DNA of 64,000 nucleotides from Mycobacterium sp. Z3061 (lineage in GTDB: Bacteria; Actinomycetota; Actinomycetes; Mycobacteriales; Mycobacteriaceae), in the NCBI RefSeq assembly GCF_031583025.1, contig NZ_CP134062.1:6173234-6237233 (forward strand), read 5' to 3'. Below, piece by piece: positions 37,890 through 63,162 of this stretch (position 1 is the stretch's first letter; each line of letters opens with the position of its first letter). Both the position numbers and the translations under genes were made by a program. The notes below the pieces were generated by a model, which saw only the letters and a list, made by a program, of their open reading frames with translations, searched no databases and was not told where the DNA came from.

Positions 37890-37949
37890 GCCGAGTGTTA
37901 AGCCACTGCGAGATTCGGGCCTGATTTTCGCAACCGTTTAACACTCGGC
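37890..37949. repeat. 60-bp palindromic element A (5' of DUF559 gene 1)
   Basis: Starts GCCGAGTGTTAA and ends TTAACACTCGGC, perfect 12-bp terminal arms (13 bp with one flanking base on each side). An inner TGCGA/TCGCA pair is at 37907-37911 and 37928-37932. It lies 35 bp upstream of the DUF559 gene start and 62 bp after the echA19 stop. The same GCCGAG...CTCGGC ends and total length are found at 63103-63162 and, with small changes, at 62161-62220, both next to the paralogous gene. It could act as an echA19 terminator, although no T tract follows. Confidence 0.75.
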
Positions 37950-37984
37950 GCAGATGTCGGTCGGCCACGGCAGACTGCTGAGCC

Positions 37985-38851
37985 GTGGACGGACCATTCA
38001 TCGGCAGTGAAGCGATTGCCGAGGGCATCCTGACGCCTTACCAGCTACGCAGCCGCTACCAGGCCCTTCATCCCAACGTCTACATTCCGCCCGGCTCGGA
38101 ACTCACGGCCGCACAGCGCGCCTACGCCGCTTGGCTTTGGTCGAAGCGCCGCGGAGTTGTCGCCGGACAGTCCGCAGCGGCGCTGCACGGCGCCAAATGG
38201 GTAGATGACCGAAAACCCGGCGAGCTGATCTACCGCAACCGGAACCCGCCGACAGGCGTTGTCACCTGGTCGGATCGCATACGCCGCGACGAGGCTCAAA
38301 TTATCGACGGCATACGGGTCACGACGCCTGCTCGGACGGCGTTGGATCTCGCCACCCGCTACCCGCCAGGCAGAGCCGTCGCTGCGATCGATGCCCTGGC
38401 CCGGGCTACCAGGTTTCAGGCACCCGACGTCAAACTGCTACTCGATCGCCACAAGGGCCGCCGCAACATCCGACAAGCCCGCAAAGTGCTACGCCTCGTA
38501 GACCCCGGTGCGCAGTCCCCGAAAGAAACCTGGCTGCGACTACTTGTCATCGACGCCGGCTACCCGCCGCCGCAAACGCAGATTCCGATCCACGGCCCTT
38601 ACGGCGACCTCGTGGGCATAGTCGATATGGGTTGGCAAGCAATGAAACTCGCACTGGAGTACGAAGGCGGACATCACCGTACGCCCGGCCAATTCACCAA
38701 AGACATCGCCCGCTACGAGACGATGACCACTGATTTGCACTGGATTGTCATCAGAGTCACCAAACAGGACACCCCGGGCGGCATTCTCGGCCGACTCGCG
38801 ACCGCTTGGTTGAAACGAGCACCTACCCCAGCACCGGCGCGCTCGGCGTGA
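37985..38851 (+). CDS. AbiEi-like N-terminal / DUF559 nuclease-fold C-terminal protein, copy 1
   Basis: 288-residue protein matching the position of Rv3517. Residues 1-145 resemble AbiEi-type winged-helix antitoxin/regulator proteins (Y-x-ALHPNVYIP, LHGAKWVDD, DGIRVTTPARTALDLA, AAIDALARAT). Residues 175-260 show the DUF559/Vsr-like PD-(D/E)XK pattern: E181 (SPKETWLR), D214 (IVDMGW), E225 and E227 (ALEYEGGHH), D240 and R243. No function is established. GTG at 37985 is the start that aligns with the paralogue at 62204-63049; the two line up without gaps to about residue 231. Its 3' end overlaps cyp142 by 29 bp, converging. No KstR box precedes it, and its only upstream signal is the 60-bp palindrome. 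Confidence 0.85.
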   Translation: MDGPFIGSEAIAEGILTPYQLRSRYQALHPNVYIPPGSELTAAQRAYAAWLWSKRRGVVAGQSAAALHGAKWVDDRKPGELIYRNRNPPTGVVTWSDRIRRDEAQIIDGIRVTTPARTALDLATRYPPGRAVAAIDALARATRFQAPDVKLLLDRHKGRRNIRQARKVLRLVDPGAQSPKETWLRLLVIDAGYPPPQTQIPIHGPYGDLVGIVDMGWQAMKLALEYEGGHHRTPGQFTKDIARYETMTTDLHWIVIRVTKQDTPGGILGRLATAWLKRAPTPAPARSA

Positions 38852-40043
38852 ACACCACCGGCATCGACTCCAGACCGGACACGAAATTTGCCGGCCGCAA
38901 CGGCAGCGCGGACTCGTCGGCCAACCGCAGGTCAGGCAACCGCTGCAGCACCCTCGATGTCATCAACGACAACTCCAGACGCGCCAGCTGGTTACCCATA
39001 CAGAAGTGCGTGCCGAACCCAAAAGCCAGATGGCTGTTCGGGTTTCGCCGGATGTCGAACTTCTCCGGTTGATCGAACACCGACTCGTCGAAGTTCGCCG
39101 CCTCGAACAACAGCATGATCTTCTCTCCGGCGCTCAAAGACGTGCCATGAAAATCGGTGTCCGCGGTCAACGTCCGGCACATGTTCTTCACCGGTGACGT
39201 CCAGCGCAGCATCTCCTCGATGGCACCAGGTAGCAACCCAGGGTCGCCCACCAGATCGGAGAACTGGTCCTGGTTGCGCACCAGTTGCTCGGTCCCCCCG
39301 CTCAACGTGTGCCGGGTGGTCTCGTCACCGCCGATCAGGATCAGCAGGGTCTCCATGACGATCTCTTCGTCCGACATCCGCTGACCCTCGACCTCGGCGT
39401 TGATCAGGATCGAGTACAGGTCGTCAGTCGGCTCCGCACGGCGCTTGCCGATCAGGTCCATCGTGAACGCCGTATAACCGGCGAACGCCTCCATCACGGT
39501 CTGGAACTCCACCGAGGTCGGGTCGATGTGGGACGACAGCCCGCACACCAGATCGTCCGACCACTTCAGCAACATCCCCCGCTCGGACGGCAGCACGCCC
39601 AGCATGTCGCCGATCACCGCCATCGGCAGCGGCGCGGCGATGTCGCGCACAAAGTCGCACTCACCGCGCTCACACACCGCGTCGATCAAGGTGTCGCAAA
39701 GCTCCCCGATCGAGGCCTCTTTGTCCTTCACCCGCTTGCGCGTGAAGCCGGCGTTCACCAGCTTGCGGCGCACCAGATGCGAGGGGTCGTCCATGTCGAT
39801 CATGTAGGGCATACCGGGCTGATCGGGACGGATGCCCCCGGTGCTGGAGAACAACTCCGGGTTGCGCTCGGCATCCAGGATCGCCTGATACGTTGTCGCG
39901 CCTGCCAATCCGTTACGGTCGCGGAACACCGGCTGGTTCGCCCGCATCCAGCGGTACGCCTCCCGCGCCCCGACGCCGTCGGCATAGAAGTTGCCGTCCG
40001 CCAGATCGATGTTGAGGATCGTGTCCGGAATCGTTGACGTCAT
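38823..40043 (-). CDS. cyp142: Cytochrome P450 CYP142, steroid C26/27 monooxygenase
   Basis: 406-residue P450 that oxidises the terminal methyl of the cholesterol or cholestenone side chain to the alcohol and acid, a backup to CYP125 with opposite stereochemistry. Haem ligand Cys348 is in FGFGTHFCMG; the I-helix oxygen-activation segment is ILIGGDETTRH, and the K-helix ExxR is in IEEMLRW. The start MTSTIPDTIL gives a few more N-terminal residues than M. tuberculosis CYP142 (398 aa). Only 45 bp separate it from the divergent ADC-like gene, and I see no consensus KstR box there. Its acid product is the substrate of FadD19 encoded nearby. Confidence 0.95.
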   Translation of the reverse strand: MTSTIPDTILNIDLADGNFYADGVGAREAYRWMRANQPVFRDRNGLAGATTYQAILDAERNPELFSSTGGIRPDQPGMPYMIDMDDPSHLVRRKLVNAGFTRKRVKDKEASIGELCDTLIDAVCERGECDFVRDIAAPLPMAVIGDMLGVLPSERGMLLKWSDDLVCGLSSHIDPTSVEFQTVMEAFAGYTAFTMDLIGKRRAEPTDDLYSILINAEVEGQRMSDEEIVMETLLILIGGDETTRHTLSGGTEQLVRNQDQFSDLVGDPGLLPGAIEEMLRWTSPVKNMCRTLTADTDFHGTSLSAGEKIMLLFEAANFDESVFDQPEKFDIRRNPNSHLAFGFGTHFCMGNQLARLELSLMTSRVLQRLPDLRLADESALPLRPANFVSGLESMPVVFTPSAPVLG

Positions 40044-40088
40044 CTACAGCCTCCAGTTTTCTGCCTCGAGCCCATTACAGTAAGCCCC

Positions 40089-40799
40089 ATGCCTGTCTCG
40101 CAACACACCATCGCCGGAACCGTTCTCACCATGCCGGTCGTCATCCGTAAAGCCGACCAGCATTCCGCGATGTTCTCGGTCAAGGCCGACGCCGCCCAAC
40201 GGCTGATCGACTACAGCGGCCTCGAAGTCTTTCAATACCTGCCCGGCCGGGCGATTCTGGTGCAACTGCTGGTCCGCTACATCGACGGCGACCTCGGCAA
40301 GTACCACGAGTACGGCACCGCGTTTCTGGTCAACAAGCCCGGTACCCACGCAACAGGCATCCGCGCGATGGCCGACGCCGCCACCTTCATCCATCAGCTG
40401 CCGGTCGACCAGGAATTCACCCTCGAGGCCGGCCGCACCATCTGGGGCTACCCAAAGATCATGGCGGACTTCAACGTTCGCGAGGGCCACAAGTTCGCAT
40501 TCGACGTGAGCGCCGACGGTCACCTGATCGCCGGTATCGAGTTCAGCCCGGGCCTGCCGCACCCGGCGCCGAAGCCCCAGACGTTGACGACGTACTCCTG
40601 CCTGGACGGAGTGACCCGCGAGACCACCTCGACCATGCAGACCACCGGCGTGCGGACCCGGCTCGGCGGCGCCAAAATCCGCCTCGGCGACCACCCCTAC
40701 GCCAAGGAACTGGCGACCCTGGGACTGCCCAAGCGAGCACTGATGACGCAGTCGGTCACCAACGTAGAGATGTCGTTCGGCGACGCACGCGCCGTCTGA
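40089..40799 (+). CDS. Acetoacetate decarboxylase-family protein (Rv3519-like)
   Basis: 236 residues, the same length as Rv3519. The overall pattern (PVVIRKADQHSAMFSV, LVRYIDGDLGKYHEYGTAFLV, EAGRTIWGYPKIMADF) is that of the acetoacetate decarboxylase fold, where a conserved lysine forms a Schiff base; the GYPK motif supplies a plausible lysine near residue 125. The substrate is unknown; placement among sterol genes suggests a keto acid or aldol-type reaction on a steroid intermediate, which is inference. It diverges from cyp142 and converges on the LLM oxidoreductase gene. Confidence 0.8.
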   Translation: MPVSQHTIAGTVLTMPVVIRKADQHSAMFSVKADAAQRLIDYSGLEVFQYLPGRAILVQLLVRYIDGDLGKYHEYGTAFLVNKPGTHATGIRAMADAATFIHQLPVDQEFTLEAGRTIWGYPKIMADFNVREGHKFAFDVSADGHLIAGIEFSPGLPHPAPKPQTLTTYSCLDGVTRETTSTMQTTGVRTRLGGAKIRLGDHPYAKELATLGLPKRALMTQSVTNVEMSFGDARAV

Positions 40800-40815
40800 G
40801 ACCATCCGGCCAATC

Positions 40816-40829
40816 TAGAACGTGTTCTA
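40816..40829. promoter_or_regulatory. Perfect KstR-type palindrome at a convergent junction
   Basis: TAGAACGTGTTCTA is a perfect 14-bp palindrome matching TNNAACNNGTTNNA, the best KstR site in the window. It lies in the 51-bp gap between the 3' ends of the ADC-like gene (stop at 40799) and the LLM oxidoreductase gene (stop at 40851), so it is not in a promoter position for any annotated gene. Confidence 0.75.
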
Positions 40830-40850
40830 ACACCCTCGCAAGCACCGGCC

Positions 40851-41882
40851 TCAGGTCAGTGCCGCGAGGTCCCGTACCTGCTCAACGCTGCGGGCACCCA
40901 CAACCATCATGGTGACGCCGGACGCCTCCCAGGCCACGATCTGCTTACGCACGTAGTCCAAGTCGCCGACGATCATGGCGTCGTCGACCAACTCGTCCGG
41001 AATGACCTTGGCCGCCTCGTCCTTGCGGTTGGACCGGAACAACTTCGTCACCTCGTCGACCACCTCGGAGTAGCCCATGCGGCGGTAGACGTCGGCGTGG
41101 AAGTTGGTGTCCTCGGCGCCCATGCCGCCCATGTAGAGCGCCAAGTACGGCTTGACCGCCTCGAAAGTCCCGGCGCGGTCCTCGGTCACCACCACCTGCG
41201 CCGTCGCGCACACCTCGAAGTCCTCGCGGCTGCGGCGGGCACCGGGCCGGGCGAATCCCTCGTCCAACCATTCGTTGTAGGTGTCCGCCATTCGCGGCGA
41301 ATAGAAGATGGGCAACCAGCCGTCGCAGATCTCGGCCGCCAACGCCACGTTCTTCGGGCCTTCCGCACCCAGCATGATCGGGATGTCGGCGCGTAACGGG
41401 TGGGTGATCGGCTTCAACGCCTTACCCAAACCCGTTGTGCCCTCACCGGTCAGCGGTAACGGGTAGTGCGGTCCGTCGCTGGTCACCGGCTTCTCCCGGG
41501 CCCAGACCTGGCGCACGATGTCGATGTATTCACGGGTGCGGGCCAGCGGTTTGGGGAACCGGGCCCCGTACCAGCCTTCGACCACCTGCGGCCCGGACAC
41601 ACCCAGGCCGAGGATGTGCCGGCCGCCCGACAGATGGTCCAGCGTCAGCGCGGCCATCGCGCAGGCGGTAGGCGTGCGGGCGGAAAGCTGTACCACCGAG
41701 GTGCCCAGGCGCACCCGCTGCGTCTCCCGGCCCCACCAGGCCAGCGGCGTGTAGGCGTCCGAGCCCCACGCCTCGGCGGTGAACACGGCGTCGAATCCCG
41801 CTTCCTCGGCGGCCGCGACGAGCTCGGCGTGGTTCTCCGGCGGCTGAGCGCCCCAATACCCCAGTTGCAACCCGAGCTTCAT
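40851..41882 (-). CDS. LLM-class (probably F420-dependent) oxidoreductase, Rv3520c-like
   Basis: 343-residue luciferase-like TIM-barrel protein. The N-terminus MKLGLQLGYWG, the segment AEEAGFDAVFTAEAWGSDAYTPLAWW, LGTSVVQLSARTP and LGLGVSGPQVVEGWYG are typical of mycobacterial F420-dependent oxidoreductases. Family members use reduced F420 or flavin on varied substrates; the substrate here is unknown. It corresponds in position and length to Rv3520c (347 aa). It diverges from the Rv3521-like gene across a KstR box at 41930-41943, which lies 48 bp from its ATG, so sterol control is likely. Confidence 0.85.
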   Translation of the reverse strand: MKLGLQLGYWGAQPPENHAELVAAAEEAGFDAVFTAEAWGSDAYTPLAWWGRETQRVRLGTSVVQLSARTPTACAMAALTLDHLSGGRHILGLGVSGPQVVEGWYGARFPKPLARTREYIDIVRQVWAREKPVTSDGPHYPLPLTGEGTTGLGKALKPITHPLRADIPIMLGAEGPKNVALAAEICDGWLPIFYSPRMADTYNEWLDEGFARPGARRSREDFEVCATAQVVVTEDRAGTFEAVKPYLALYMGGMGAEDTNFHADVYRRMGYSEVVDEVTKLFRSNRKDEAAKVIPDELVDDAMIVGDLDYVRKQIVAWEASGVTMMVVGARSVEQVRDLAALT

Positions 41883-41929
41883 AGCGCGCCTCCCGAAGAC
41901 CTTCCAATGGACCTAGTTGAAACCATTCT

Positions 41930-41943
41930 TAGAACCTGTTCTA
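41930..41943. promoter_or_regulatory. KstR operator between the LLM gene and the Rv3521-like operon
   Basis: TAGAACCTGTTCTA fits TNNAACNNGTTNNA with near-perfect dyad symmetry. It is 9 bp upstream of the GTG of the Rv3521-like gene and 48 bp from the divergent LLM oxidoreductase start, placing both the five-gene ltp4-ltp3 unit and the LLM gene under KstR. Confidence 0.83.
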
Positions 41944-41952
41944 CTCGAATGC

Positions 41953-42945
41953 GTGACAGCCAGTTCAAGCGGCCCGGCCCTGATCGATCACCCTGAGCCG
42001 CCCCTCTCCGCACCGTTGACATTGGCCTTCGACTACACCCGTTCGGTCGGTCCCACGCTAGGCCAGTTTTTCACCGCACTGCGTGAGCGCCGCGTTCTGG
42101 GAGTACGCGGCTCCGATGGCCGGGTACATGTACCGCCGCCGGAATACGACCCGGTGACCTACGAACCGCTGGGCGAGATGGTACCGGTGGAAAGCGTCGG
42201 CACCGTGGTCTCCTGGACCTGGCAGCCCGCGCCGATCGGCGGCGAACCGCTGGACCGGCCGTTCGCGTGGGCGCTGATCAAGCTCGACGGCGCCGACACC
42301 CCGCTGATCCACGCGGTGGACGCCGGCTCCCCGGACGCCATCAAGACCGGTGACCGGGTGCACGTGCACTGGGCCGACGAGACCGTCGGCGCCATCACCG
42401 ACATCGCCTATTTCGCACTGGGTGACGAGGCCGAGGACGTTCCCGAGCCGCAGACCGGCCTGGACCCGGTCACCATGATCGTCACGCCCGTCTCGCTGAC
42501 GATTCAGCACACCGCGTCCCACGAGGAGAGCGCCTATCTGCGGGCGATCGCCGAAGGAAAACTGTTGGGCGCCAGGACAGGTGAGGCCGGGAAGGTGTAC
42601 TTCCCGCCGCACGGCGCCGACCCGGCCACCGGCCTGCCCACCACCGAATTCGTCGAACTGCCGGACAAGGGCACGGTGACGACGTTCGCGATCATCAACA
42701 TCCCGTTCCAGGGCCAGCGCATCAAGCCGCCCTATGTGGCGGCGTACGTGTTGCTCGATGGCGCCGATATTCCGTTCCTGCACTTGGTCGCCGACGTCGA
42801 CGCGCACGAAGTGCGCATGGGCATGCGTGTCGAGGCAGTCTGGAAGCCCCGCGAGGAGTGGGGATTCGGCATCGACAACATCGAATACTTCCGGCCTACC
42901 GGCGAACCGGACGCCGAGTACGACACCTACAAGCACCACCTGTAA
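41953..42945 (+). CDS. Tandem DUF35 OB-fold protein (Rv3521-like), probable Ltp partner
   Basis: 330 residues holding two DUF35-like halves: FFTALRERRVLGVRGSDG...VGTVVSWTW (about residues 35-95) and YLRAIAEGKLLGARTGEAG...KGTVTTFAI (about 200-255). DUF35 proteins pair with thiolase-like enzymes; ChsH2's DUF35 domain is needed by Ltp2. The four cysteines of the usual DUF35 rubredoxin-like zinc ribbon are absent here; Pro- and Tyr-rich segments replace them. GTG at 41953 is chosen because the KstR box ends 9 bp before it; an earlier ATG (41917) would run through the operator. It is first gene of a unit with ltp4 (15-nt gap), so it likely forms a complex with Ltp3/Ltp4. Confidence 0.85.
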   Translation: MTASSSGPALIDHPEPPLSAPLTLAFDYTRSVGPTLGQFFTALRERRVLGVRGSDGRVHVPPPEYDPVTYEPLGEMVPVESVGTVVSWTWQPAPIGGEPLDRPFAWALIKLDGADTPLIHAVDAGSPDAIKTGDRVHVHWADETVGAITDIAYFALGDEAEDVPEPQTGLDPVTMIVTPVSLTIQHTASHEESAYLRAIAEGKLLGARTGEAGKVYFPPHGADPATGLPTTEFVELPDKGTVTTFAIINIPFQGQRIKPPYVAAYVLLDGADIPFLHLVADVDAHEVRMGMRVEAVWKPREEWGFGIDNIEYFRPTGEPDAEYDTYKHHL

Positions 42946-42960
42946 AGGGCACAGCTACAC

Positions 42961-44022
42961 ATGAGTGATCGCAATGTCGCGGTGGTCGGCTTCGCCCACG
43001 CGCCGCATGTCCGCCGCACCGACGGCACCACCAACGGCGTCGAGATGTTGATGCCGTGCTTCGCGCAGCTGTATCAGGATCTCGGCATCAACAAGTCCGA
43101 CATCGGCTTCTGGTGCTCAGGATCGTCGGACTATCTTGCCGGACGGGCGTTTTCGTTCATCTCGGCGATCGACTCGATCGGCGCCGTACCGCCGATCAAC
43201 GAGTCGCACGTCGAGATGGACGCCGCCTGGGCACTGTACGAGGCCTATATCAAGATCCTCACCGGCGAGGTCGAGACGGCGCTGGTATACGGCTTCGGCA
43301 AGTCCTCGGCGGGCATTCTGCGCCAGATCCTGACGCGGCAGACCGACCCTTACACCGTTGCGCCGCTGTGGCCCGACTCGGTGTCGATGGCGGGGTTGCA
43401 GGCGCGCATCGGCCTGGACTCCGGTAAATGGACGCCCGAACAGATGGCCCAGGTCGCGCTGGACTCGTTCGCGCAGTCCGAGCGCAACGATTCCGAGAAG
43501 CCGGCGAAGAGCATCGACGAACTGCTGTCCCGGCCGTTCTTCAACGATCCACTGCGCCGTCACGACATCGCACCGATCACCGACGGCGCCGCGGCCATCG
43601 TGCTGGCGGCCGGGGACAAAGCCCGGGAGCTGCGCGAAAACCCGGCCTGGATAACGGGAATCGAGCACCGCATCGAAACCCCCGTGCTCGGCGCCCGCGA
43701 CCTCACCGCCTCGCCGTCCACCGCGGTGTCGGCGAAAGCCGCCACAAACGGCGACGCCGCCGTGGACGTCGCGGAAATCCACGCGCCGTTCACCCACCAG
43801 CACCTGATCCTCGCCGAGGCCATCGGCTTGACCGACAAGACGAAGGTCAACCCGTCCGGCGGCGCGCTGGCGGCCAACCCGATGTTCGTTGCCGGACTGG
43901 AACGCATCGGCCTGGCGGCACAACATATCTGGAAGGGATCGGCACAGCGGGTCCTCGCGCACGCCACCAGTGGCCCAGCGCTGCAACAGAATCTGGTCGC
44001 GGTCATGGAAGGACAGAACTGA
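42961..44022 (+). CDS. ltp4: Thiolase-superfamily lipid transfer protein/aldolase Ltp4
   Basis: 353-residue SCP-x/thiolase-like protein corresponding to Rv3522. Family features: VAVVGFAHAPHVRRTDG at the N-terminus, ITDGAAAIVLAAGDKA mid-protein, and NPSGGALAANPMFVAGLERI near the C-terminus. The thiolase nucleophile region reads INESHVEMDAAWAL with no cysteine, so it should not be a classical thiolase. In Rhodococcus ltp3 and ltp4 are aldol-lyase genes for C24-branched sterol side chains, and the related Ltp2 is a retro-aldolase. It sits between the tandem DUF35 gene and ltp3, sharing one base with the latter (TGATG). Confidence 0.9.
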   Translation: MSDRNVAVVGFAHAPHVRRTDGTTNGVEMLMPCFAQLYQDLGINKSDIGFWCSGSSDYLAGRAFSFISAIDSIGAVPPINESHVEMDAAWALYEAYIKILTGEVETALVYGFGKSSAGILRQILTRQTDPYTVAPLWPDSVSMAGLQARIGLDSGKWTPEQMAQVALDSFAQSERNDSEKPAKSIDELLSRPFFNDPLRRHDIAPITDGAAAIVLAAGDKARELRENPAWITGIEHRIETPVLGARDLTASPSTAVSAKAATNGDAAVDVAEIHAPFTHQHLILAEAIGLTDKTKVNPSGGALAANPMFVAGLERIGLAAQHIWKGSAQRVLAHATSGPALQQNLVAVMEGQN

Positions 44023-45215
44023 TGGCCGGCGCAGGAGCGCACCTTGCCGCGGTACTCGGCACCGGGCAGACGAAGTATGTCGCGAAGCGCAAAGACGTTT
44101 CGATGAACGGCATGGTCCGCGAGGCCATCGACCGGGCACTGGAAGATTCCGGTTGCACCTTCGACGACATCGACGCCGTCGTCGTCGGCAAGGCGCCCGA
44201 CTTCTTCGAGGGCGTCATGATGCCGGAGCTGTTCATGGCCGACGCCATGGGCGCGACCGGCAAGCCACTGATCAGGGTGCACACCGCGGGTTCGGTGGGC
44301 GGCTCCACCGGCGTGGTGGCGGCCAGCCTGGTGCAGTCCGGCAAGTACCGCCGGGTGCTGGCGATGGCGTGGGAGAAGCAGTCGGAATCCAATGCCATGT
44401 GGGCACTTTCGATCCCCATCCCGTTCATCAAGCCCGTGGGTGCGGGCGCCGGTGGGTATTTCGCCCCGCACGTCCGGTCCTACATCCGCCGCTCCGGAGC
44501 ACCACTCAACATCGGTGCCATGGTCGCGGTCAAGGACCGGCTCAACGGGGTCCGCAACCCGCTGGCCCACCTGCACCAGCCCGACATCACCCTGGAAAAG
44601 GTGATGGAGTCGCCGATGCTGTGGGACCCGATCCGCTACGACGAGACCTGCCCGTCCTCCGATGGTGCCGCCGCCGTCGTCATCGGCGACGAGGAAACGG
44701 CCGACGCCAAGGTGGCCGAGGGCCGCCCCGTCGCGTGGATCCACGCCACCGCGCTGCGCACCGAGCCGCTGCAGTTCTCCGGCCGTGACCAGGTCAGCCC
44801 GCAGGCCAGTCGTGACGCGGCCGCCGCTCTGTGGAAGGCGGCCGGTATCACCAGTCCCATCGACGAGATCGACGCCGCGGAGATTTACGTACCGTTCTCC
44901 TGGTTCGAGCCGATGTGGTTGGAAAGTCTCGGTTTTGCACCCGAAGGCGAGGGCTGGAAACTCACCGAGGCCGGCGAGACGGCGATCGGCGGGCGGATCC
45001 CGGTCAACCCGTCGGGCGGCGTGCTGTCCTCCAACCCGATCGGCGCCTCCGGACTGATCCGCTTCGCTGAAGCCGCCATCCAGGTGATGGGCAAGGGCGG
45101 CGACCATCAGGTGCCAAACGCCCGAAAAGCATTGGGCCACGCGTACGGCGGTGGTTCGCAGTATTACTCGATGTGGGTAGTCGGCAGCGACAAGCCGGGG
45201 GAAACCGCGAAATGA
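44022..45215 (+). CDS. ltp3: Thiolase-superfamily lipid transfer protein/aldolase Ltp3
   Basis: 397 residues, close to M. tuberculosis Ltp3 (Rv3523, 394 aa). Thiolase-like landmarks are AVLGTGQTKYVAKRKDVSM, SSDGAAAVVIGDEETA, and the C-terminal NPSGGVLSSNPIGASGLIRFAEA with GHAYGGGSQY. At the position of the thiolase active cysteine the sequence is VHTAGSVGGS, Ala replacing Cys, in line with aldolase rather than thiolase chemistry. ATG at 44022 overlaps the ltp4 stop; the long open frame further upstream is the shadow of ltp4. The stop overlaps the next gene in an ATGA junction. Probably acts with Ltp4 and the DUF35 protein on C24-branched side chains. Confidence 0.92.
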   Translation: MAGAGAHLAAVLGTGQTKYVAKRKDVSMNGMVREAIDRALEDSGCTFDDIDAVVVGKAPDFFEGVMMPELFMADAMGATGKPLIRVHTAGSVGGSTGVVAASLVQSGKYRRVLAMAWEKQSESNAMWALSIPIPFIKPVGAGAGGYFAPHVRSYIRRSGAPLNIGAMVAVKDRLNGVRNPLAHLHQPDITLEKVMESPMLWDPIRYDETCPSSDGAAAVVIGDEETADAKVAEGRPVAWIHATALRTEPLQFSGRDQVSPQASRDAAAALWKAAGITSPIDEIDAAEIYVPFSWFEPMWLESLGFAPEGEGWKLTEAGETAIGGRIPVNPSGGVLSSNPIGASGLIRFAEAAIQVMGKGGDHQVPNARKALGHAYGGGSQYYSMWVVGSDKPGETAK

Positions 45216-46093
45216 AGTACACGCTCAGCATCGCGTTCAGCCCGATCGACCAGCTGACCGAACTCGCCAAGACCGCGGAGGAAGTCGGGTTCGACTCCAT
45301 CGCCCTACCGGATTCGATCTTCTACTTCGAGCAGCAGTCCGTCGACTATCCCTACACCGCCGACGGGAAGCGGATGTTCGACGAGCACTCCCCCTGGGTC
45401 GATCCGCTGATCCTGGCGGGCACGTTGGGTGCCGTCACCTCCAAGCTGCGCTTCTACACCAACGTGCTGAAGCTGGGTTCGCGCAACCCGCTGCTGCTGG
45501 CCCGCCAGGTCGGCTCGGTGGCCAACCTGACCAACAACCGTTTCGGCTTCGGCGTGGGAATCGGCTGGGCGCCGGAGGAATTCGAGTGGTGCGGGGTGCC
45601 GTACGCCCGTCGCGGCAAGCGCGTCGACGAGATGATCGAAGTGATCAAGCTGGTGTTGGCCGGCGGGATGGTCGAATTCCATGGCGAGTTCTACGATTTC
45701 GACCGCCTGCAGATGAGCCCCGCCCCCAGCGAGCCGGTGCCGTTCTACGTCGGCGGCCACACCGACGTCGCCCTCAAGCGCGCCGCCCGGGTCAGCGACG
45801 GCTGGACCAGCGCGATGATGACCCACGCGGAACTGGACGAGACCATCAAGAAGCTCAAGACACTGCTCGCCGAAAACGGCCGCGCGGACGATCCTTTCGA
45901 ATACCAGGCCGTCTGCATGGACAAGTTCGGCGTTGACGGCCATCGGGAGCTGGCCGAGATCGGGGTGACCGACTACATCACGATTCCGTGGGTGTTCGAC
46001 GGGCTGGCGTTCGACGCGCCGCTGGACAAGAAGCAGGACTCGATGAAGCGCTTCGCCGACACCTATATCCACTCCGGCTGGCAGGACAAGTGA
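45212..46093 (+). CDS. LLM-class oxidoreductase in the ltp operon
   Basis: 293 residues with the luciferase-like fold: SIAFSPIDQLTELAKTAEEVGFDSIALPDSIFY, RFYTNVLKLGSRNPLLLARQVGSVANLTNNRFGFGVGIGWAPEEFEW and PFYVGGHTDVALKRAARVSDGW, the pattern of TIGR03619-type F420-dependent enzymes. ATG at 45212 overlaps the ltp3 stop (ATGA), and its own stop overlaps the next gene, so it is translationally coupled within the KstR-controlled unit. In M. tuberculosis the place after ltp3 is taken by Rv3524, a different membrane protein, as I recall. The substrate is unknown; a sterol side-chain or ring redox step is inferred from context. Confidence 0.85.
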   Translation: MKYTLSIAFSPIDQLTELAKTAEEVGFDSIALPDSIFYFEQQSVDYPYTADGKRMFDEHSPWVDPLILAGTLGAVTSKLRFYTNVLKLGSRNPLLLARQVGSVANLTNNRFGFGVGIGWAPEEFEWCGVPYARRGKRVDEMIEVIKLVLAGGMVEFHGEFYDFDRLQMSPAPSEPVPFYVGGHTDVALKRAARVSDGWTSAMMTHAELDETIKKLKTLLAENGRADDPFEYQAVCMDKFGVDGHRELAEIGVTDYITIPWVFDGLAFDAPLDKKQDSMKRFADTYIHSGWQDK

Positions 46094-46494: not shown

Positions 46495-46517
46495 ATTATT
46501 TTTATTCTGGGCGCGCC

Positions 46518-46523: not shown

Positions 46524-46530
46524 TCGCGGC

Positions 46531-54686: not shown

Positions 54687-54705
54687 GATCCGCCCCACGA
54701 GAAAT

Positions 54706-54719: not shown

Positions 54720-54768
54720 TTCCCCAACCCTTGCGGTCCATTTTACGCCGCGGCGTGCCCTCACTGAC

Positions 54769-54784
54769 TTTGCCCGACGGCAAA
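54769..54784 (-). terminator. Hairpin TTTGCC-CGAC-GGCAAA after the PPE gene
   Basis: A 6-bp stem with a 4-nt loop, 24 bp beyond the PPE stop codon on the minus strand. It has no strong U tract, so it may act only as a weak intrinsic terminator or 3'-end stabiliser. Confidence 0.35.
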
Positions 54785-54807
54785 ACGTCGACGCGGCCGG
54801 TGTTGCG

Positions 54808-56589: not shown

Positions 56590-56697
56590 CGGTACCCAGT
56601 CCCTTCGGTGGCGGCCCCGAAACCGCCGAACACAACAGAAACTAGGTGATCCCGGGCCAACCTTTCCGGGTTTTGCTCAATTCATCGCGTGACCCGG

Positions 56698-57753
56698 TCA
56701 ACGGGACGCGGCAGCGTCACTTTCCTGTTCGCGCTTGATTTCCAGTGCGATGTCAATCAGCTGGTCTTCCTGGCCGCCGATCAGCTTGCGCTGGCCTGCC
56801 CGGTGCAACAGCTGGTGAGCCGGAACGCCGTACCGCTCGGACTGACGCACCGCGTGCTTGAGGAAGCTCGAGTACACCCCGGAGTAGCCCATGATCAGCG
56901 CGTTGCGATCGAGCAGACACTCGGCCGGCATGGCCGGGCGCACCACGTCTTCGGCTGCGTCGGCGATATCGAAGAAGTCGATGCCGGTCTTCACGCCGAT
57001 CTTGTCGAACACCCCGATCAGCGCCTCTACCGGTGCGTTGCCGGCACCCGCACCGAACCGGCGCACGCTGCCGTCGATCTGCTTGGCGCCGGCCCGCACG
57101 GCTTCCACCGAGTTGGCCACCCCGAGGCCGAGGTTCTCGTGCCCGTGGAAGCCGACCTGCGCGTCCTCGCCGAGTTCGGCCACCAGCGCCGACACCCGGT
57201 CAGCGACGCCGTCGAGCACGAGGGCGCCGGCCGAGTCCACGACGTAGACGCACTGGCAACCGGCGTCGGCCATGATGCGGGCCTGCGCGGCCAGTTTCTC
57301 CGGTGGAATGGTGTGCGACATCATCAGGAACCCGACGGTTTCCAGCCCCAATTCGCGGGCGAGCCCGAAATGCTGAATGGAGACGTCGGCTTCGGTGCAG
57401 TGGGTGGCGATGCGGCAAATCGAACCGCCATTGTCCTGCGCTTCTTTGATGTCCTCTTTGGTCCCCACGCCGGGCAGCATCAGAAAGGCAATCTTCGCTT
57501 CCTGCGCAGTCTCGGCGGCGAGCTTGATCAACTCCTGCTCGGGCGTCTTCGAGAAGCCGTAGTTGAACGACGACCCGCCCAGTCCGTCCCCGTGGGTCAC
57601 CTCGATCACCGGCACCCCGGCGGCGTCCAACGCCGTCACGATGGAGCGAACCTCGTCCTTGGTGAACTGGTGACGCTTATGGTGCGACCCGTCGCGCAGC
57701 GATGTGTCGGTGATCCGGACGTCCCAGGCACCTTCAAAAATGTGGCCAGTCAT
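56698..57753 (-). CDS. hsaF: 4-hydroxy-2-oxovalerate aldolase HsaF
   Basis: 351-residue DmpG/HMGL-family class II aldolase that splits 4-hydroxy-2-oxohexanoate from steroid ring A/B degradation into pyruvate and propanal. Motifs: [15 protein letters not shown] at the N-terminus (metal and catalytic residues), [11 protein letters not shown] with metal-binding histidines, and the communication-domain end [21 protein letters not shown]. It channels its aldehyde to HsaG, whose gene overlaps it by 4 nt (ATGA). Length agrees with Rv3534c (346 aa). Co-transcribed with hsaE and hsaG from the KstR-controlled promoter near 59550. Confidence 0.96.
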
Positions 57754-58664
57754 CGTGCGCCTCCAGTCACAGCCAGCGTCTCCTTGGCGATCTCCTCGCC
57801 GACCTTCGTTGCGGCCGCCGTCATGATGTCCAGGTTGCCCGCGTACGGCGGCAGGTAGTCTCCGGCGCCCTCGACCTCGACGAACGTCGTCACCACGTGA
57901 TTGCCACCGTTGACCACCGACGGTTCGTCGAACTGCGGATCGTTGAGCAGTCGGTATCCGGGCACGTAGGTCTGCACCTCGGCGACCACGTCACGGATGG
58001 ACTGGGCGATCGCATCCCGGTCGGCGTCCTCAGGGATCGCGCAGAAGATGGTGTCGCGCATGATCATCGGCGGATCCGCCGGGTTCAGAATGATGATCGC
58101 CTTGCCGCGGGCCGCGCCACCGATGTTCTGCACGCCGCGCGACGTGGTCTTGGTGAACTCGTCGATGTTGGCGCGGGTGCCCGGCCCCGCGGACACCGAA
58201 GCCACCGACGCCACGATCTCGGCGTACGGCACGTCGACCACGCGACTCACGGCGTACACGATCGGAATCGTCGCCTGTCCCCCGCAGGTGATCATGTTGA
58301 CGTTCGGGGCGTCCAAGTGCGCGCGCAGGTTCGCCGGTGGGATCACCGCCGGACCGACGGCGGCCGGGGTCAGGTCGATGGCCCGGATGCCGGCCGCCTC
58401 GTACTTGGGCGCCGCCGCCTTGTGGACGTAGGCGCTGGTCGCCTCGAACACCAAGTCGGGCTTCTCGTCCTGTTCCAAGAGCCAGTCGGCGCCCTTGTGA
58501 CTGGTCTCCAGCCCGAGCTTGCGCGCCCGTGCCAGGCCCTCACTCTCCGGGTCGATGCCCACCATCCAGCGGGGTTCCAGCCAGTCGGATCTCAGCAGCT
58601 TGTACAGCAGATCGGTGCTGATGTTTCCCGATCCGACAATGGCCACACTCGCCTTTGCAGGCAT
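57750..58664 (-). CDS. hsaG: Propanal/acetaldehyde dehydrogenase (acylating) HsaG
   Basis: 304-residue DmpF-type enzyme converting propanal plus CoA and NAD+ to propionyl-CoA. The NAD-binding motif [14 protein letters not shown] is near the start and the catalytic cysteine is in [15 protein letters not shown] at 58664 ([12 protein letters not shown]) is chosen: AGGAG lies 7 nt upstream and the length matches Rv3535c (303 aa); the frame is open further upstream (to 58850) but that overlaps hsaE and is unconserved. It overlaps hsaF by 4 nt and follows hsaE after 76 bp. Confidence 0.96.
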
Positions 58665-58740
58665 ACCAACGCTCCTAACCCCATGGTCGCGACCCGCTTC
58701 GCCCGGCTTCCCCGCGCTTGCGATCACTCCTTGTCGAGAC

Positions 58741-59526
58741 TTATTCAAAAGACAGACGAACGGCACCCAGCCCCGCGAAGTCGGCGACGAACTCGTCGCC
58801 GGCCCGCGCGTCGACGGCGAAGGTGCACGATCCGGGTAACACGATGTCACCCTTCTTCAGCCGCACGCCGAAACTTTCCACCTTGCGGGACAGCCATGCC
58901 ACAGCGGTGACGGGATTACCCAGAACCGCGTCACTGCGGCCCTCTGCGATCAACTCGCCGTTGCGGGTCAGCTTCGCGTCGATCGCCTTGACGTCGACAT
59001 CTGCCGGCGAGACGCGCGCGGCGCCCAGCACGAAGCCCGCCGAGGAGGCATTGTCGGCGATGGTGTCGCAGATCTTGATCTGCCAGTCCTTGATCCGGGT
59101 GTCGATGAGCTCGATCGACGGGACCAACGCCTCGGTGGCGGCGAGCACGTCCTCTTCGGTGCACTCGGCGCCCGGCAGGTCACCGGACAGAATGAAGCCG
59201 ACCTCGACCTCCACCCGCGGCAGCAGGTACCGCGACGTCGGCACCGGTACGTCCTCGAAGACCTGCATGTCGTCGAGCAGGTGCCCGTAGTCCGGCTCGT
59301 CGACGCCCATCATCTGCTGCATCACCGGCGACGACAGCCCCACCTTGTGACCCACCACCCGGGCACCCTCGGCGACCCGGCGGCGAATGTTGAGCAACTG
59401 GATCTTGTAGGCGTCGACGACGTCGATGTCGGGGTACGCGGGCGTCAACGGAGCGATTCCCTGACGGGTCAACTCGGCCTGTGCCAGGTCGGCGGCAAGC
59501 GCTTCTCGGGTCGCATCACTGAGCAT
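58741..59526 (-). CDS. hsaE: 2-hydroxyhexa-2,4-dienoate hydratase HsaE
   Basis: 261 residues, the same length as Rv3536c. MhpD/fumarylacetoacetase-fold hydratase that adds water to 2-hydroxyhexa-2,4-dienoate, giving the HsaF substrate. Motifs: [29 protein letters not shown], the metal-binding acidic set in [10 protein letters not shown], and [17 protein letters not shown] at 59526 is preceded by AAGGAA. First gene of hsaE-hsaG-hsaF and divergent from kstD across the KstR box at 59584-59597. Confidence 0.95.
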
Positions 59527-59583
59527 TTACCGAAGTTCCTTCGTCCGCGTGACCGGGCCAGTAGCGCCCAGCCCGGGCAATTC

Positions 59584-59597
59584 TATAACGTGTTCTA
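59584..59597. promoter_or_regulatory. KstR operator between hsaE and kstD
   Basis: TATAACGTGTTCTA fits TNNAACNNGTTNNA. It ends one base before the kstD ATG (59599) and is 58 bp upstream of hsaE. A repressor here would cover the kstD initiation site itself. Confidence 0.85.
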
Positions 59598-59598
59598 C

Positions 59599-61281
59599 AT
59601 GACAGCACAGGAGTACGACGTCGTCGTGGTGGGTAGCGGCGGCGCCGGTATGGTGGCTGCCCTCACCGCCGCGCACCGCGGCCTCTCGACAGTAGTCATC
59701 GAGAAGGCACCGCACTATGGCGGTTCGACCGCCCGCTCGGGCGGCGGCGTGTGGATCCCGAACAACGAGGTCCTGCAGCGCTACAAAGTGAAGGACACCG
59801 CGGAGGCGGCCCGCACCTACCTGCACGGCATCGTCGGCGATGTCGTGGAACCCGAACGCATCGACACCTACCTACAGCGCGGGCCGGAGATGCTCTCTTT
59901 CGTCCTCGAGCACACGCCGCTGAAGATGTGCTGGGTACCGCGTTACTCCGACTACTACCCGGAGGCGCCGGGCGGGCGGGCCGGCGGCCGGTCGATCGAG
60001 CCGAAGCCGTTCAATGCCCGCAAGCTCGGTGCGGACGAGGCGGGACTGGAACCTGCCTACGGCAAAGTGCCGCTGAACGTGGTCGTCATGCAACAGGATT
60101 ACGTGCGGCTCAACATGCTCAAGCGCCACCCACGCGGTGTGCTGCGCAGCTTGAAGGTCGGCGGACGCACCATGTGGGCCAAGGCCACCGGTAAGAACCT
60201 GGTCGGCATGGGGCGCGCATTGATTGGCCCGCTGCGAATCGGGTTGCAAAGAGCGGGAGTTCCGGTCGTACTCAACACCGCGCTGACCGACCTCTACGTC
60301 GAGGACGGGGTGGTGCGCGGCGTTTACGTCCGCGATGCGGGCGCTCCGGAATCCGCGGAGCCGCGGCTGATCCGGGCCCGGCGCGGGGTGATCCTGGCGT
60401 CCGGTGGTTTCGAGCACAACGAGCAGATGCGGGTGAAGTATCAGCGCGCCCCCATCACCACCGAGTGGACGGTCGGCGCCAAGGCCAATACCGGTGACGG
60501 CATTGTCGCAGGCGAAAAGCTTGGCGCTGCATTGGATTTGATGGAAGACGCATGGTGGGGGCCGACGGTGCCACTGGCGGGCGCCCCGTGGTTCGCGCTC
60601 TCGGAGCGCAACTCGCCGGGGTCGATCATCGTCAACATGTCCGGCAAGCGGTTCATGAACGAATCGATGCCCTACGTCGAGGCGTGCCATCACATGTACG
60701 GCGGCCAGTACGGTCAGGGCCCCGGCCCGGGCGAGAACATCCCGGCCTGGCTGGTCTTCGACCAGCAGTACCGAGAGCGCTACATCTTCGCAGGATTGCA
60801 GCCCGGGCAACGCATTCCGCGCAAGTGGATGGAGTCCGGCGTGATCATCCAGGCCGACACTCTGGAGGAACTGGCCGGGAAGGCGGGCCTGCCCGTCGAC
60901 GAATTCACCAAGACCGTGGCGCGTTTCAACGGCTTCGCCCGCTCAGGCGTCGACGAGGACTTCCACCGCGGCGAGAGCGCGTACGACAAGTACTACGGCG
61001 ACCCGACCAACAAGCCGAACCCGAACCTGGGCGAACTCACCCATGCGCCTTACTACGCCGCCAAGATGGTGCCGGGCGACCTCGGCACCAAGGGCGGAAT
61101 CCGCACCGATGTTCACGGACGCGCCCTGCGCGACGACGGCAGCGTCATCGATGGCCTTTACGCCGCAGGCAATGTCAGCGCACCGGTGATGGGGCACACC
61201 TATCCTGGTCCGGGCGGCACGATCGGTCCCGCCATGACATTCGGGTACCTGGCGGCACTACACATCGCAGGAGCGCACTGA
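59599..61281 (+). CDS. kstD: 3-ketosteroid Delta1-dehydrogenase KstD
   Basis: 560-residue FAD enzyme that introduces the 1,2 double bond in 4-ene-3-ketosteroids; with KshA this aromatises ring A and opens ring B. The dinucleotide motif is VVVGSGGAGMVAAL (Gly12-Gly17), followed by EKAPHYGGSTARSGGGVWIPNN. Near the C-terminus GHTYPGPGGTIGPAMTFG holds a Tyr and a Gly four residues later, like Tyr487/Gly491 of Rhodococcus KstD1. ATG at 59599 (MTAQEYDVVVV) matches the family start (Rv3537, 563 aa); an in-frame upstream extension would run through the operator and hsaE. Transcribed with chsH3. Confidence 0.96.
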   Translation: MTAQEYDVVVVGSGGAGMVAALTAAHRGLSTVVIEKAPHYGGSTARSGGGVWIPNNEVLQRYKVKDTAEAARTYLHGIVGDVVEPERIDTYLQRGPEMLSFVLEHTPLKMCWVPRYSDYYPEAPGGRAGGRSIEPKPFNARKLGADEAGLEPAYGKVPLNVVVMQQDYVRLNMLKRHPRGVLRSLKVGGRTMWAKATGKNLVGMGRALIGPLRIGLQRAGVPVVLNTALTDLYVEDGVVRGVYVRDAGAPESAEPRLIRARRGVILASGGFEHNEQMRVKYQRAPITTEWTVGAKANTGDGIVAGEKLGAALDLMEDAWWGPTVPLAGAPWFALSERNSPGSIIVNMSGKRFMNESMPYVEACHHMYGGQYGQGPGPGENIPAWLVFDQQYRERYIFAGLQPGQRIPRKWMESGVIIQADTLEELAGKAGLPVDEFTKTVARFNGFARSGVDEDFHRGESAYDKYYGDPTNKPNPNLGELTHAPYYAAKMVPGDLGTKGGIRTDVHGRALRDDGSVIDGLYAAGNVSAPVMGHTYPGPGGTIGPAMTFGYLAALHIAGAH

Positions 61282-61282
61282 T

Positions 61283-62143
61283 ATGCCGATCGACGTCGAA
61301 GTCGCACTGGCCGCGGAACTGGATCCCATCGAATTCTCCTGGACGAGTAGCGATATCCAGCTTTACCACCTCGGCCTGGGCGCCGGGTCCGACCCGATGG
61401 ACCCGCGTGAGTTGCGCTATCTGATCGACGACACCCCGCAGGTGCTGCCCACCTTCGGCAATGTCGCCGCCACCTTCCACCTGACCAAGCCGCCCACCGT
61501 GCAGTTCCCGGGCATCGACATCGAACTGAGCAGGGTGTTGCACGCGTCGGAGCGGGTGGAAGTGCCTGGGCCACTACCGCCTTCGGGTTCGGGTAAGGCG
61601 GTCACGCGGTTCACCGATATCTGGGACAAGGGCAAGGCCGCGGTGATCTGGAGCGAGACGACGGTGACCGGGCCCTCCGGGGACGTGCTTTGGACGCAGC
61701 GGCGGTCGATCTTCGCCCGCGGCGAGGGCGGGTTCGGTGGCGAGCGTGGGCCCTCGGGCTCGGATGCCGCACCGGAACGTAGGCCCGACCTGGAGCTCGC
61801 CATGCCGCTGTTGCCGCAACAGGCGCTGCTGTACCGCCTGTGCGGCGACCGTAACCCGCTGCACTCCGATCCCGAATTCGCGGCTGCCGCAGGCTTTCCC
61901 CAGCCAATCCTGCACGGACTGTGCACTTACGGCATGACCTGCAAGGCGATCACCGACGCCTTGCTGGACGGGGACGCCTCGGCCGTCGCTGCCTATGGCG
62001 CCCGCTTCGCGGGCGTGGCCTATCCGGGTGAGACGCTGCAAGTCAACGTCTGGAAGGAAGACGGCCGCTTCCTGGCCGGCGTGGTCGCGCCGGCGCGCGA
62101 CAACGCCGTCGTGTTGTCCGGCGTCGAACTCGTCCCGGCCTAG
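61283..62143 (+). CDS. chsH3: MaoC-like steroid enoyl-CoA hydratase ChsH3
   Basis: 286 residues, the same as Rv3538. Double-hotdog R-specific hydratase; the C-terminal hydratase-2 motif YRLCGDRNPLHSDPEFAAAAGFPQPILHGL carries the catalytic Asp/His pair (about residues 190-215). Rv3538 (ChsH3) hydrates the same class of steroid 22-enoyl-CoA as EchA19 but with the other stereochemistry. ATG at 61283 is 1 nt after the kstD TGA, so the two are co-translated under the KstR box at 59584. A 60-bp palindrome (62161-62220) follows 17 bp after its stop and could end transcription. Confidence 0.9.
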   Translation: MPIDVEVALAAELDPIEFSWTSSDIQLYHLGLGAGSDPMDPRELRYLIDDTPQVLPTFGNVAATFHLTKPPTVQFPGIDIELSRVLHASERVEVPGPLPPSGSGKAVTRFTDIWDKGKAAVIWSETTVTGPSGDVLWTQRRSIFARGEGGFGGERGPSGSDAAPERRPDLELAMPLLPQQALLYRLCGDRNPLHSDPEFAAAAGFPQPILHGLCTYGMTCKAITDALLDGDASAVAAYGARFAGVAYPGETLQVNVWKEDGRFLAGVVAPARDNAVVLSGVELVPA

Positions 62144-62160
62144 CCCCTCTCCCCCCTTGC

Positions 62161-62220
62161 GCCGAGCGTGCGGCCAGCCGCGCATTCGGTGCCCGGTGTG
62201 CGGCTAGCCGCACATTCGGC
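62161..62220. repeat. 60-bp palindromic element B (spans the 3' end of DUF559 gene 2)
   Basis: Terminal arms GCCGAGCGTGCGGC (62161-62174) and GCCGCACATTCGGC (62207-62220) pair with two mismatches. Inside are two palindromes: GTGCGGCCAGCCGCGC (62168-62183, imperfect) and GTGCGGCTAGCCGCAC (62198-62213, perfect), with centres 30 bp apart, the same geometry as element C. The TAG stop of the DUF559 gene is the CTAG centre of the perfect palindrome. It lies between convergent chsH3 and DUF559, so it could also be a two-way terminator. Confidence 0.8.
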
Positions 62221-63049
62221 GGCCCAGCGCCGAACGGACACGACTGATGATCTCGGCGGACTTGTCGCCAGCGAGCACTCGAATCACAATCCAACCAAGA
62301 CGCTCGAGCAGTTCCCGACGCCGGCTGTCCCACCTGTACTGCCCCTGATCGGTTCTGTGCTGCTCACCGTCATACTCAACAGCGACTTTCAAGTCAGGCC
62401 AGCCCATGTCGAGGTAAGCGAACTCCTGACCATACTCGTCGCGCACCGGAATCTGGGTCTGCGGCCTGGAAAAGCCGGCTTGCACCAGCAGCACCCGCAG
62501 CCACGACTCCTTTGGAGATTGCGCGCCAGCATCGAACAAGTCGACTGCCCGTCGCGCCCGCACAATCCCTCGTCGTCCACCGTATCGACGCGACAACAGT
62601 TCTACGTCCACCGACTTGATGTCGGTCGCCCGAGCCAGCGCATCAATGGCCGCCACCGCCCTCGTGGTCGGATACCAGCAGCCGAGGTCCAAGGCAGTCC
62701 TGACCGGCGAGGTGACAAGCATGCCGTCGTTCAGTTCTATCTCGTCTTCATCTATACGGTCGCGGTGCACGCGGATACCGGGCGGGCACCGTCGATTTCC
62801 GTGCAGCAACTCCACTGCCTGACCATCGTCGACCCATCGGCTGCCGTGCAGTACAGCTGCCGAGTATCCCGCGAGCACACCACAGCGACCCGTCCACAGC
62901 CACCCGGCCTCGGCTCGTGATTTGGCGGTGACCTCGGCACTCCGCCCGACATAGACATCTGGAAACAGTCGGCGATATCCGGTAGCCAGTTCAGACTTGG
63001 TCAAGGCTCCCGTAGCGAGGGCCTCGCTACCAATGAACGGCTGTCGCAC
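62204..63049 (-). CDS. AbiEi-like N-terminal / DUF559 nuclease-fold C-terminal protein, copy 2
   Basis: 281 residues, paralogous to 37985-38851 with gap-free alignment over residues 1-231 (shared FIGSEA, WVDD, TPxRTALDL, AAIDALARAT, GAQSPKExWLR, PQTQIPV/I, DMGW). The nuclease-like set is E181, D214, E225, D227 (AVEYDG) and H231, with DxxRR near 241 and the DUF559 closing segment LGWIVIRVLAGD. No function is established. GTG at 63049 is the start that aligns. The last codons RRMCG and the stop lie inside palindrome element B, and element C lies 53 bp upstream. In M. tuberculosis this place is held by PPE63, so the gene is probably an insertion or a locus-specific replacement. Confidence 0.85.
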   Translation of the reverse strand: MRQPFIGSEALATGALTKSELATGYRRLFPDVYVGRSAEVTAKSRAEAGWLWTGRCGVLAGYSAAVLHGSRWVDDGQAVELLHGNRRCPPGIRVHRDRIDEDEIELNDGMLVTSPVRTALDLGCWYPTTRAVAAIDALARATDIKSVDVELLSRRYGGRRGIVRARRAVDLFDAGAQSPKESWLRVLLVQAGFSRPQTQIPVRDEYGQEFAYLDMGWPDLKVAVEYDGEQHRTDQGQYRWDSRRRELLERLGWIVIRVLAGDKSAEIISRVRSALGRRMCG

Positions 63050-63102
63050 GATGGCAGCCTCGCACGCAGGGCAGCTCCAGTCGCTTCAACTATCCACACC
63101 TC

Positions 63103-63162
63103 GCCGAGAGTGCGGCTAGCCGCACCTCCGCGAACGAGTGTGCGGCGAGCCGCACACTCGGC
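63103..63162. repeat. 60-bp palindromic element C (5' of DUF559 gene 2)
   Basis: Terminal arms GCCGAGAGTGCGGC and GCCGCACACTCGGC pair with one mismatch. Two inner palindromes are GTGCGGCTAGCCGCAC (63110-63125, perfect) and CGAGTGTGCGGC-GA-GCCGCACACTCG (63135-63160, 12-bp perfect arms), centres 30 bp apart. It lies between ltp2 (3' end at 63176) and the DUF559 start (63049), both on the minus strand, so it may also terminate ltp2. Confidence 0.85.

Follow-up and report, generated by a model that had tools for sequence, protein, structure and literature searches.

A candidate palindrome-bounded nuclease cassette in Mycobacterium sp. Z3061 and related genomes

Features of the locus

The window analyzed here, a stretch of 64,000 nucleotides from the chromosome of Mycobacterium sp. 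Z3061 (contig NZ_CP134062.1, positions 6,173,234 to 6,237,233 of the forward strand; the genome, G000 below, is a single contig of 6.79 Mb), carries two genes for AbiEi-like proteins, genes A and B, and three palindromic elements of 60 bp beside them (Table 1), which probably belong to nuclease cassettes that recognize the core of their own palindrome. Genes A and B are paralogues with 51% identity across 279 aa, as the first-pass annotation of this DNA had proposed. It had also described three 60-bp elements with complementary arms, two of which (B and C) consist of two palindromes with centres 30 bp apart, and both descriptions were borne out: the arms of each element pair, and the folding of each is better than that of 200 out of 200 shuffled sequences on both strands. 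Its placement of the elements at the 5' sides of the genes is correct for elements A and C; element B is situated at the 3' end of the gene on the minus strand and holds its stop codon (62204-62206). Regarding the Z3061 allele of gene A, no 3' element was seen when its 3' side was compared with genome G039, which is labelled as the same species.

A palindrome scan of the window (score >=12) yielded only elements A, B and C above position 33000. The earlier claim that the elements are exclusive to the two genes thus holds within the window; it does not hold in the genome, where dozens of copies occur. The remaining palindromes of the scan lie below position 33000 in a PE_PGRS-like repeat part (positions 1-33000 are densely occupied by GGCGGCACCGGCGG-type repeats, as in PE_PGRS genes). 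Chance palindromes were ruled out by the folding of shuffled sequences and by the window scan. A search of positions 37500-64000 against Rfam at the gathering cut-off gave no RNA-family matches.

Gene A is neighboured by an enoyl-CoA hydratase gene (echA19-like) on one side and a P450 gene on the other, a position similar to that of Rv3517, which is located between echA19 and cyp142 according to one report (PMC6429209). Both cassettes lie among genes of the sterol-catabolism type (positions 36832-40043, echA19/P450-like; positions 59281-63991, MaoC/thiolase-like), and such neighbours recur at many related loci.

Table 1. Elements, genes and cassette in the window
Feature	Position	Strand	Description
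Element A	37890..37949	.	Single-hairpin palindrome, 60 bp; 5' element, 35 bp ahead of the start codon of gene A
Gene A	37985..38851	+	288 aa; AbiEi-like N-terminal part; C-terminal part aligns to the DUF559-type part of gene B
Element B	62161..62220	.	Doublet of 30-bp palindromes, 60 bp in all, cores GTGCGGC; 3' element of gene B
Gene B	62204..63049	-	281 aa; N-terminal part AbiEi-like; C-terminal part nuclease-like (DUF559 / MTES_1575)
Element C	63103..63162	.	Doublet of 30-bp palindromes, 60 bp in all, cores GTGCGGC; 5' element, 53 bp ahead of the start codon of gene B
Whole B cassette	62161..63162	-	5' element, gene and 3' element; based on comparison with G039

Association of the elements with the nuclease genes

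A covariance model (R1) was built from 14 elements of the Z3061 genome, four of them beside genes of the family, and was compared with the best 80 of the 570 loci of relatives. The matches fell on 122 distinct places, namely 109 in the two gene-end zones, 3 nearby and 10 elsewhere in 1.44 Mb, while 0.17 matches would be expected in the gene-end zones from the density elsewhere. The enrichment beside DUF559 genes for which the first-pass annotation had suggested a search is therefore present, and the link between the palindromes and the nuclease gene family is very strong. Regarding the 5' zone, 53 matches were found in 51 loci; regarding the 3' zone, 56 matches were found in 54 loci. An element was present at both ends in 48 of the 80 loci and at either end in 57. 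The 5' element usually ends 31-35 or 41-56 bp ahead of the start codon. The 3' element includes the stop codon in 51 of its 56 matches, and the end of the stop codon prefers registers 10 bp (23 matches), 16 bp (10) and 46 bp (7) into the element. A cruder palindrome score, which placed 44 left and 45 right flanks of the 80 loci above the 99% null, found fewer elements; the counts reported here use the model matches. Five further paralogues of the Z3061 genome were inspected by eye; a similar pair of elements was seen at three (L281, L284 and L285) and at most a 3' element at two (L282 and L283).

The two elements of a locus resemble each other in their variable cores. Left and right elements differed at 9.1 of 30 variable columns in A-type loci, compared with 12.2 between mismatched loci, and at 6.8 compared with 13.3 in B-type loci (0/20000 permutations in each case; 23 of 26 A-type and 22 of 24 B-type loci were taken, the latter including a few loci elsewhere in their genomes). 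An exact word of at least 12 letters was common to both flanks in 47 of 79 loci, but in only 9.9% of mismatched pairs. The two elements of locus L088 (17-76 and 942-1001) are reverse complements of each other without a mismatch over 60 bp; since only 16 bp separate the left one from a contig end, an assembly artefact is possible.

The element family in the Z3061 genome

A pattern open to lengths of 46-76 bp matched the genome at six sites, each exactly 60 bp long. The R1 scan gave at least 104 matches at E<=1 over both strands, of which almost all have a length of 60, a lower bound because 150 of 8086 first-look candidates were scored. On these two counts the notion of a pair of private elements was rejected. 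Most of the copies found are solos, usually directly after the stop codons of other genes. Besides elements A, B and C, 41 matches were placed by rough gene calls (gene B, for example, was cut short): 17 are tandem, 15 convergent, 5 divergent and 4 inside called open reading frames, and other paralogues of the family are neighbours of 3 of the 41. A stop codon was found within about 25 bp at most of the tandem and convergent sites, and convergent placement exceeded one quarter, weakly (p=0.036).

Three subfamilies were distinguished by eye, namely T1 (doublets with the cores GTGCGGC/GTGAAGC), T2 (single, GTGAACTGAGGGCG) and T3 (with CGACGCGACACGCCG). T1 elements are like the flanks of gene B and T3 elements like the flanks of the paralogue at 6252098, whereas T2 elements are like the flanks of the G039 allele of gene A and not those of the Z3061 allele. 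Across many species, 68 elements align end to end with conserved outer motifs, most of them starting with GCCGA and finishing with TCGGC; they are 60-bp cuts chosen for pairing or model matches, and their equal length is a result of construction. Compensatory cells in this alignment numbered 293, compared with 110 in shuffles (0/500), a count biased towards pairing by the same choice. At L047:10827-10946 and L208:490-670 the 30-bp palindromic unit is repeated several times in tandem. A frameshifted paralogue of the family is located near position 938720 of the Z3061 genome (L006, L286), with a weak model match at 938938 on its 3' side.

Distribution in other genomes

Each of the 60 Mycobacterium genomes sampled contains 2-13 matches to the protein family, and in a class-wide sample a homologue at E<=1e-10 was present in 79 of 118 genomes and 56 of 72 genera. 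Among 24 distant loci, 23 of which were usable, a word of at least 12 letters was common to both flanks in 14 (the 99th percentile in random mycobacterial windows, used as the null, was 11), and several have hairpins of about 60 bp. For the distant locus of G091 one additional solo, identical in core and in its 43-bp span, was found; in seven other genomes no such solo was found.

A second model (R2), applied to eight further genomes, gave 26-107 matches per genome on both strands. In the solos that were fetched, the core tends to be that of the B-type gene of the same genome, for example GTGCGGC in G031, GTGAAGC in G032 and GTCACGC in G038. For nine genomes the solo cores were compared with the flanks of the B-type genes, and the trace of the 9x9 distance matrix was matched by 2 of 20000 permutations; this test covered 91 fetched solos, not all matches, with one solo each from G033 and G035, and left out gene flanks, the L208 array and the T2 and T3 elements of Z3061. 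G032 and G038 (loci L046 and L062), the solo cores of which differ (GTGAAGC and GTCACGC), are both labelled M. asiaticum.

Many solo sites are orthologous across genomes (about 75-89% identity over about 1 kb spanning the element), with cores differing in place. One such site was looked at in 30 of the 60 genomes; by the set rule an element was present in 15, of which 12 had usable gene flanks. In these 12 genomes the distance to the flank of the own gene was 7.5, compared with 12.35 of 32 (14/20000), under a rule that was loosened post hoc (motif score >=7, >=14 pairs) after a strict threshold had kept 3 genomes and given 3303/20000. At the site orthologous to position 1104625 of Z3061, genomes G006, G049 and G069 (L298, L300 and L315) hold another hairpin, which begins with GAGCAGACGC or nearly so and is perhaps the cognate element of another paralogue.

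Cassette exchange and changes at solo sites

G039 is about 97% identical to the Z3061 genome around element sites. At the B locus identity drops to 50-80% per 60-bp bin inside the cassette, compared with mostly 95-100% outside, and the divergence sets in no more than about 17 bp from the outer palindrome end on the left and about 10 bp on the right; the exchange of the cassette is thus nearly bounded by its palindromes. The B gene of G067, a genome about 88% identical, is 89% identical to that of Z3061, and it is therefore G039 that carries the replaced allele, with the core GTGAAGC.

Orthologues of 17 of the 22 T1, 7 of the 7 T2 and 4 of the 9 T3 solo sites of Z3061 were found among 49 G039 loci. 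Six of the 17 T1 solos showed 7-23 differences, whereas none of the 11 T2 and T3 solos showed 7 or more (alignment gaps counted; one-sided p=0.045). Among 68 T1 half-sites, those of one site not being independent, the change from Z3061 to G039 was CGG to AAG, the core of the G039 gene, in 9 and the reverse in none, other to AAG in 5, CGG to other in 2 and AAG to other in 2. With G067 as outgroup, the change at sites 1104625, 6632774, 1618339 and 3980218 is assigned to the G039 branch. DNA 21-500 bp off the changed sites has 1.1-1.7% differences, so that replacement at these cognate solos of a strain with a different allele is block-like. A donor search at the six changed sites found 9 of 11 halves nearer another G039 element than their own orthologue, with one tie and one not; it had no null and was not used as support. 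Two further paralogues are 96-97% identical between the two genomes.

The T3 gene gave no match in G039 among the fetched loci. At the T3 gene site, the gene is present in G000, G006 and G016; G014 has two T3-type elements side by side without the gene (L287, G014:C18:8500-12500; L153), G008 an element beside another neighbour, and G001 no visible element. Alleles with and without the gene at one site, a feature of homing systems, thus occur.

The protein

Regarding the domain content, the Pfam, NCBIfam and PADLOC matches comprised AbiEi, DUF559, MTES_1575, weak restriction/HNH-type or unnamed models, and no tyrosine transposase (Y1 HUH, IS200/IS605-like) was among them. The PADLOC AbiEi models match the proteins of both genes, and a methyl-directed restriction-enzyme model weakly matches that of gene B. 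At its C-terminal end, gene B has a DUF559 match above and an MTES_1575 match below the cut-off, while gene A taken alone matches only AbiEi_1. Among 69 members, MTES_1575 was matched by 65 and DUF559 by 39 at E<=0.01; D214, H231 and D241 are invariant in the 69 sequences and E225 is conserved in at least 90%. The AlphaFold2 model of the gene B protein has a mean pLDDT of 93.8, and its helix 18-24, followed by two strands, is winged-helix-like in the predicted fold. No relatives of solved structure were found by sequence at E<=1. An AbiEii nucleotidyltransferase gene was not among the immediate neighbours of genes A and B (enoyl-CoA hydratase, P450, MaoC, thiolase-like).

At 24 loci with orthologous flanks, the core distance correlated, given flank distance, with the distance of the N-terminal 60 aa (0.59, 0/2000) and of residues 61-150 (0.44, 0/2000), but not with that of the C-terminal domain (0.05, 649/2000); core and flank distance alone gave r=0.18. 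This analysis supersedes an earlier one of 31 loci (N-terminal 0.63, flank r=0.02), in which non-orthologous flanks were mixed. Residue 22, part of helix 18-24, is Arg at all 15 loci whose core is GTNAC and at none of the 17 others (32 of the 34 loci entered were used; this grouping of the cores was chosen after the list had been seen).

Comparison with known systems

The first-pass annotation had likened the genes to RAYT proteins, as nucleases tied to private palindromes. The tie is supported by elements at both ends, matched cores, solos that tend to match the resident gene and co-variation of the N-terminal part; the word private does not apply, most copies being solos. As in REPIN/RAYT systems, extragenic palindromes with doublet forms are dispersed and tied to a chromosomal nuclease gene that is mostly inherited in place, with the gene between cognate palindromes and further copies in the genome. 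RAYTs belong to the tyrosine transposases (PMC8049555) and are related to the HUH enzymes of IS200/IS605 (PMC6006769), while the proteins described here combine AbiEi-like and DUF559/MTES_1575 parts. The system works like REPIN/RAYT and yet is not a RAYT, because it has no tyrosine transposase domain. RAYT/REPIN sequences have a GTAG/GGAG tetranucleotide at the foot of the REP. We know of no RAYTs with near-constant 60-bp length, a stop codon in the 3' element, cassette exchange between palindromes or rewriting in place.

The genes also resemble those of homing endonucleases (EDxHD and PD-(D/E)XK are among the families listed in PMC6083498) in being small nuclease genes that may spread by target cutting and copying. 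They differ in that the target, which is predicted to be cut, would be a palindrome that recurs dozens of times and flanks the gene on either side, instead of a single conserved site that the gene interrupts. With AbiEi-type antitoxins (AbiE type IV toxin-antitoxin systems; Rv2827c) they share the AbiEi-like N-terminal part and upstream inverted repeats; they differ in the nuclease-like C-terminal domain, the second matched palindrome at the 3' end, the dispersed solos and the lack of an AbiEii-type gene among the immediate neighbours tested. The Myt-1 stem-loop family of M. tuberculosis, a structured repeat of 72 bp in 75 copies with the covariation mark +++, may by its description be an element of the same kind, but no gene link is described in the available part of its report (PMC2267715). 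Within the open-access library searched, nothing was found that joins DUF559, or RAYT/REP sequences, with mycobacteria, nor anything on concerted evolution of intergenic palindromes in mycobacteria.

Alternative explanations

A regulon, in which an AbiEi-like regulator binds the palindromes and the cores co-evolve by selection on point mutations, would agree with the binding of AbiEi family antitoxins to paired inverted repeats upstream of their own gene, reported in PMC7319586, with the 5' element 31-56 bp ahead of the start codon in most matches and with the co-variation of N-terminal part and core. It is nevertheless unlikely in view of the matched element at the 3' end as well, the position of the solos mainly after stop codons (5 of 41 divergent), the block-like changes at rewritten sites, with 7-23 differences each against less than 2% in the DNA 21-500 bp off, and the conserved nuclease-type residues. 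Dispersal of the classical RAYT-like kind, by which palindromes are copied by the nuclease into new places and cores match after old copies are replaced by insertions, appears quite unlikely: the dispersed solos with matching cores and the variants of the T3 site in G014, G008 and G001 described above are in its favour, but orthology between genomes holds for many solo sites, at which the core differs in place.

That the nuclease defends against incoming DNA, with the palindromes as self-markers or bait, is improbable. It would accommodate the PADLOC matches, including the weak one to a methyl-directed restriction enzyme, but there is no methylase or toxin among the immediate neighbours tested, and the element sequence follows the nuclease allele and is not fixed. 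The simpler reading offered at first was that the elements are terminators; that they serve solely to terminate transcription or to structure RNA 3' ends, with DUF559 genes close by incidentally, has become very improbable. Most tandem and convergent sites do lie shortly after stop codons, and at one site some species hold another hairpin instead; however, this reading leaves unexplained the enrichment at gene ends together with the left/right matching and a core that follows the resident gene. A plain intrinsic terminator, a hairpin with a T run, was rejected, as TTTT within 8 nt after the element occurred on none of the 70 sides of 35 Z3061 elements on both strands. The elements may have a co-opted terminator role.

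Proposed mechanism

The observations are probably best explained by a nuclease cassette that recognizes the core of its own palindrome, with a homing-like effect and an outcome like that of REPIN/RAYT systems. The proposed cassette comprises a 60-bp palindrome, a gene for an AbiEi-like winged helix joined to a DUF559/PD-(D/E)XK-type nuclease and a second 60-bp palindrome. The protein would read the variable core of its own palindrome via the winged helix, and the protein would bind palindromes that are cognate or nearly so, in duplex, cruciform or hairpin form, and cut them with its nuclease domain. Repair of the cut site from another copy would convert the site; solos would thereby grow more like the resident allele, and the cassette itself could be exchanged at, or moved into, palindrome sites.

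Binding, cutting and conversion are inferred from sequence comparison. Several results weigh against this proposal. No R1 match was present at either end in 23 of the 80 loci (some of the 23 hold other element types, e.g., GGAATAGCATTCC, the right copy of which is near the reverse complement of the left). The own gene was the nearest in only 4 of 9 genomes in the solo test, and nearest or tied in only 5 of 12 at the orthologous site, where 15 of the 30 genomes have no element and G056, G068 and G066 mismatch (the gene loaded for G066 was not B-type). The G067 site orthologous to position 6167263 of Z3061 is all AAG despite the CGG-core B gene of G067. Within 20 bp of the elements, where alignments are irregular, differences amount to 31.9% at changed and 18.1% at unchanged sites. 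The A cassette was likewise exchanged between Z3061 and G039, apparently in the Z3061 lineage (flanks 98%, gene 72% identical), and no rewriting followed, the seven T2 solos having 0-4 of 60 differences; perhaps they are unchanged because the Z3061 allele of gene A is without a 3' element, or because the swap is recent. Regarding residue 22, it ranks only tenth by z-score, residues 87, 70 and 172 are highest by mutual information, and the loci share descent.

Implications

A large, little-studied actinobacterial protein family gains a partner, namely palindromes that lie at both ends of its own genes and also at the ends of others. It is possible, although slightly less than an even chance is given to it, that these are selfish or domesticated nucleases spread across the actinobacteria, each allele of which sets the palindrome 'script' via its winged helix and rewrites dozens of fixed sites in trans. 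If the proposed mechanism is true, the replacement of a resident cassette by a foreign one would be followed by the gradual overwriting of the cognate sites, a gene-drive-like process on noncoding palindromes, and the family would represent a REPIN-like system based on an unrelated nuclease. Genome-wide concerted evolution of short repeats would become directly testable, because natural alleles differ in core and N-terminal part. For hairpins at mycobacterial gene ends, which have possibly been taken for terminators, an alternative reading is offered.

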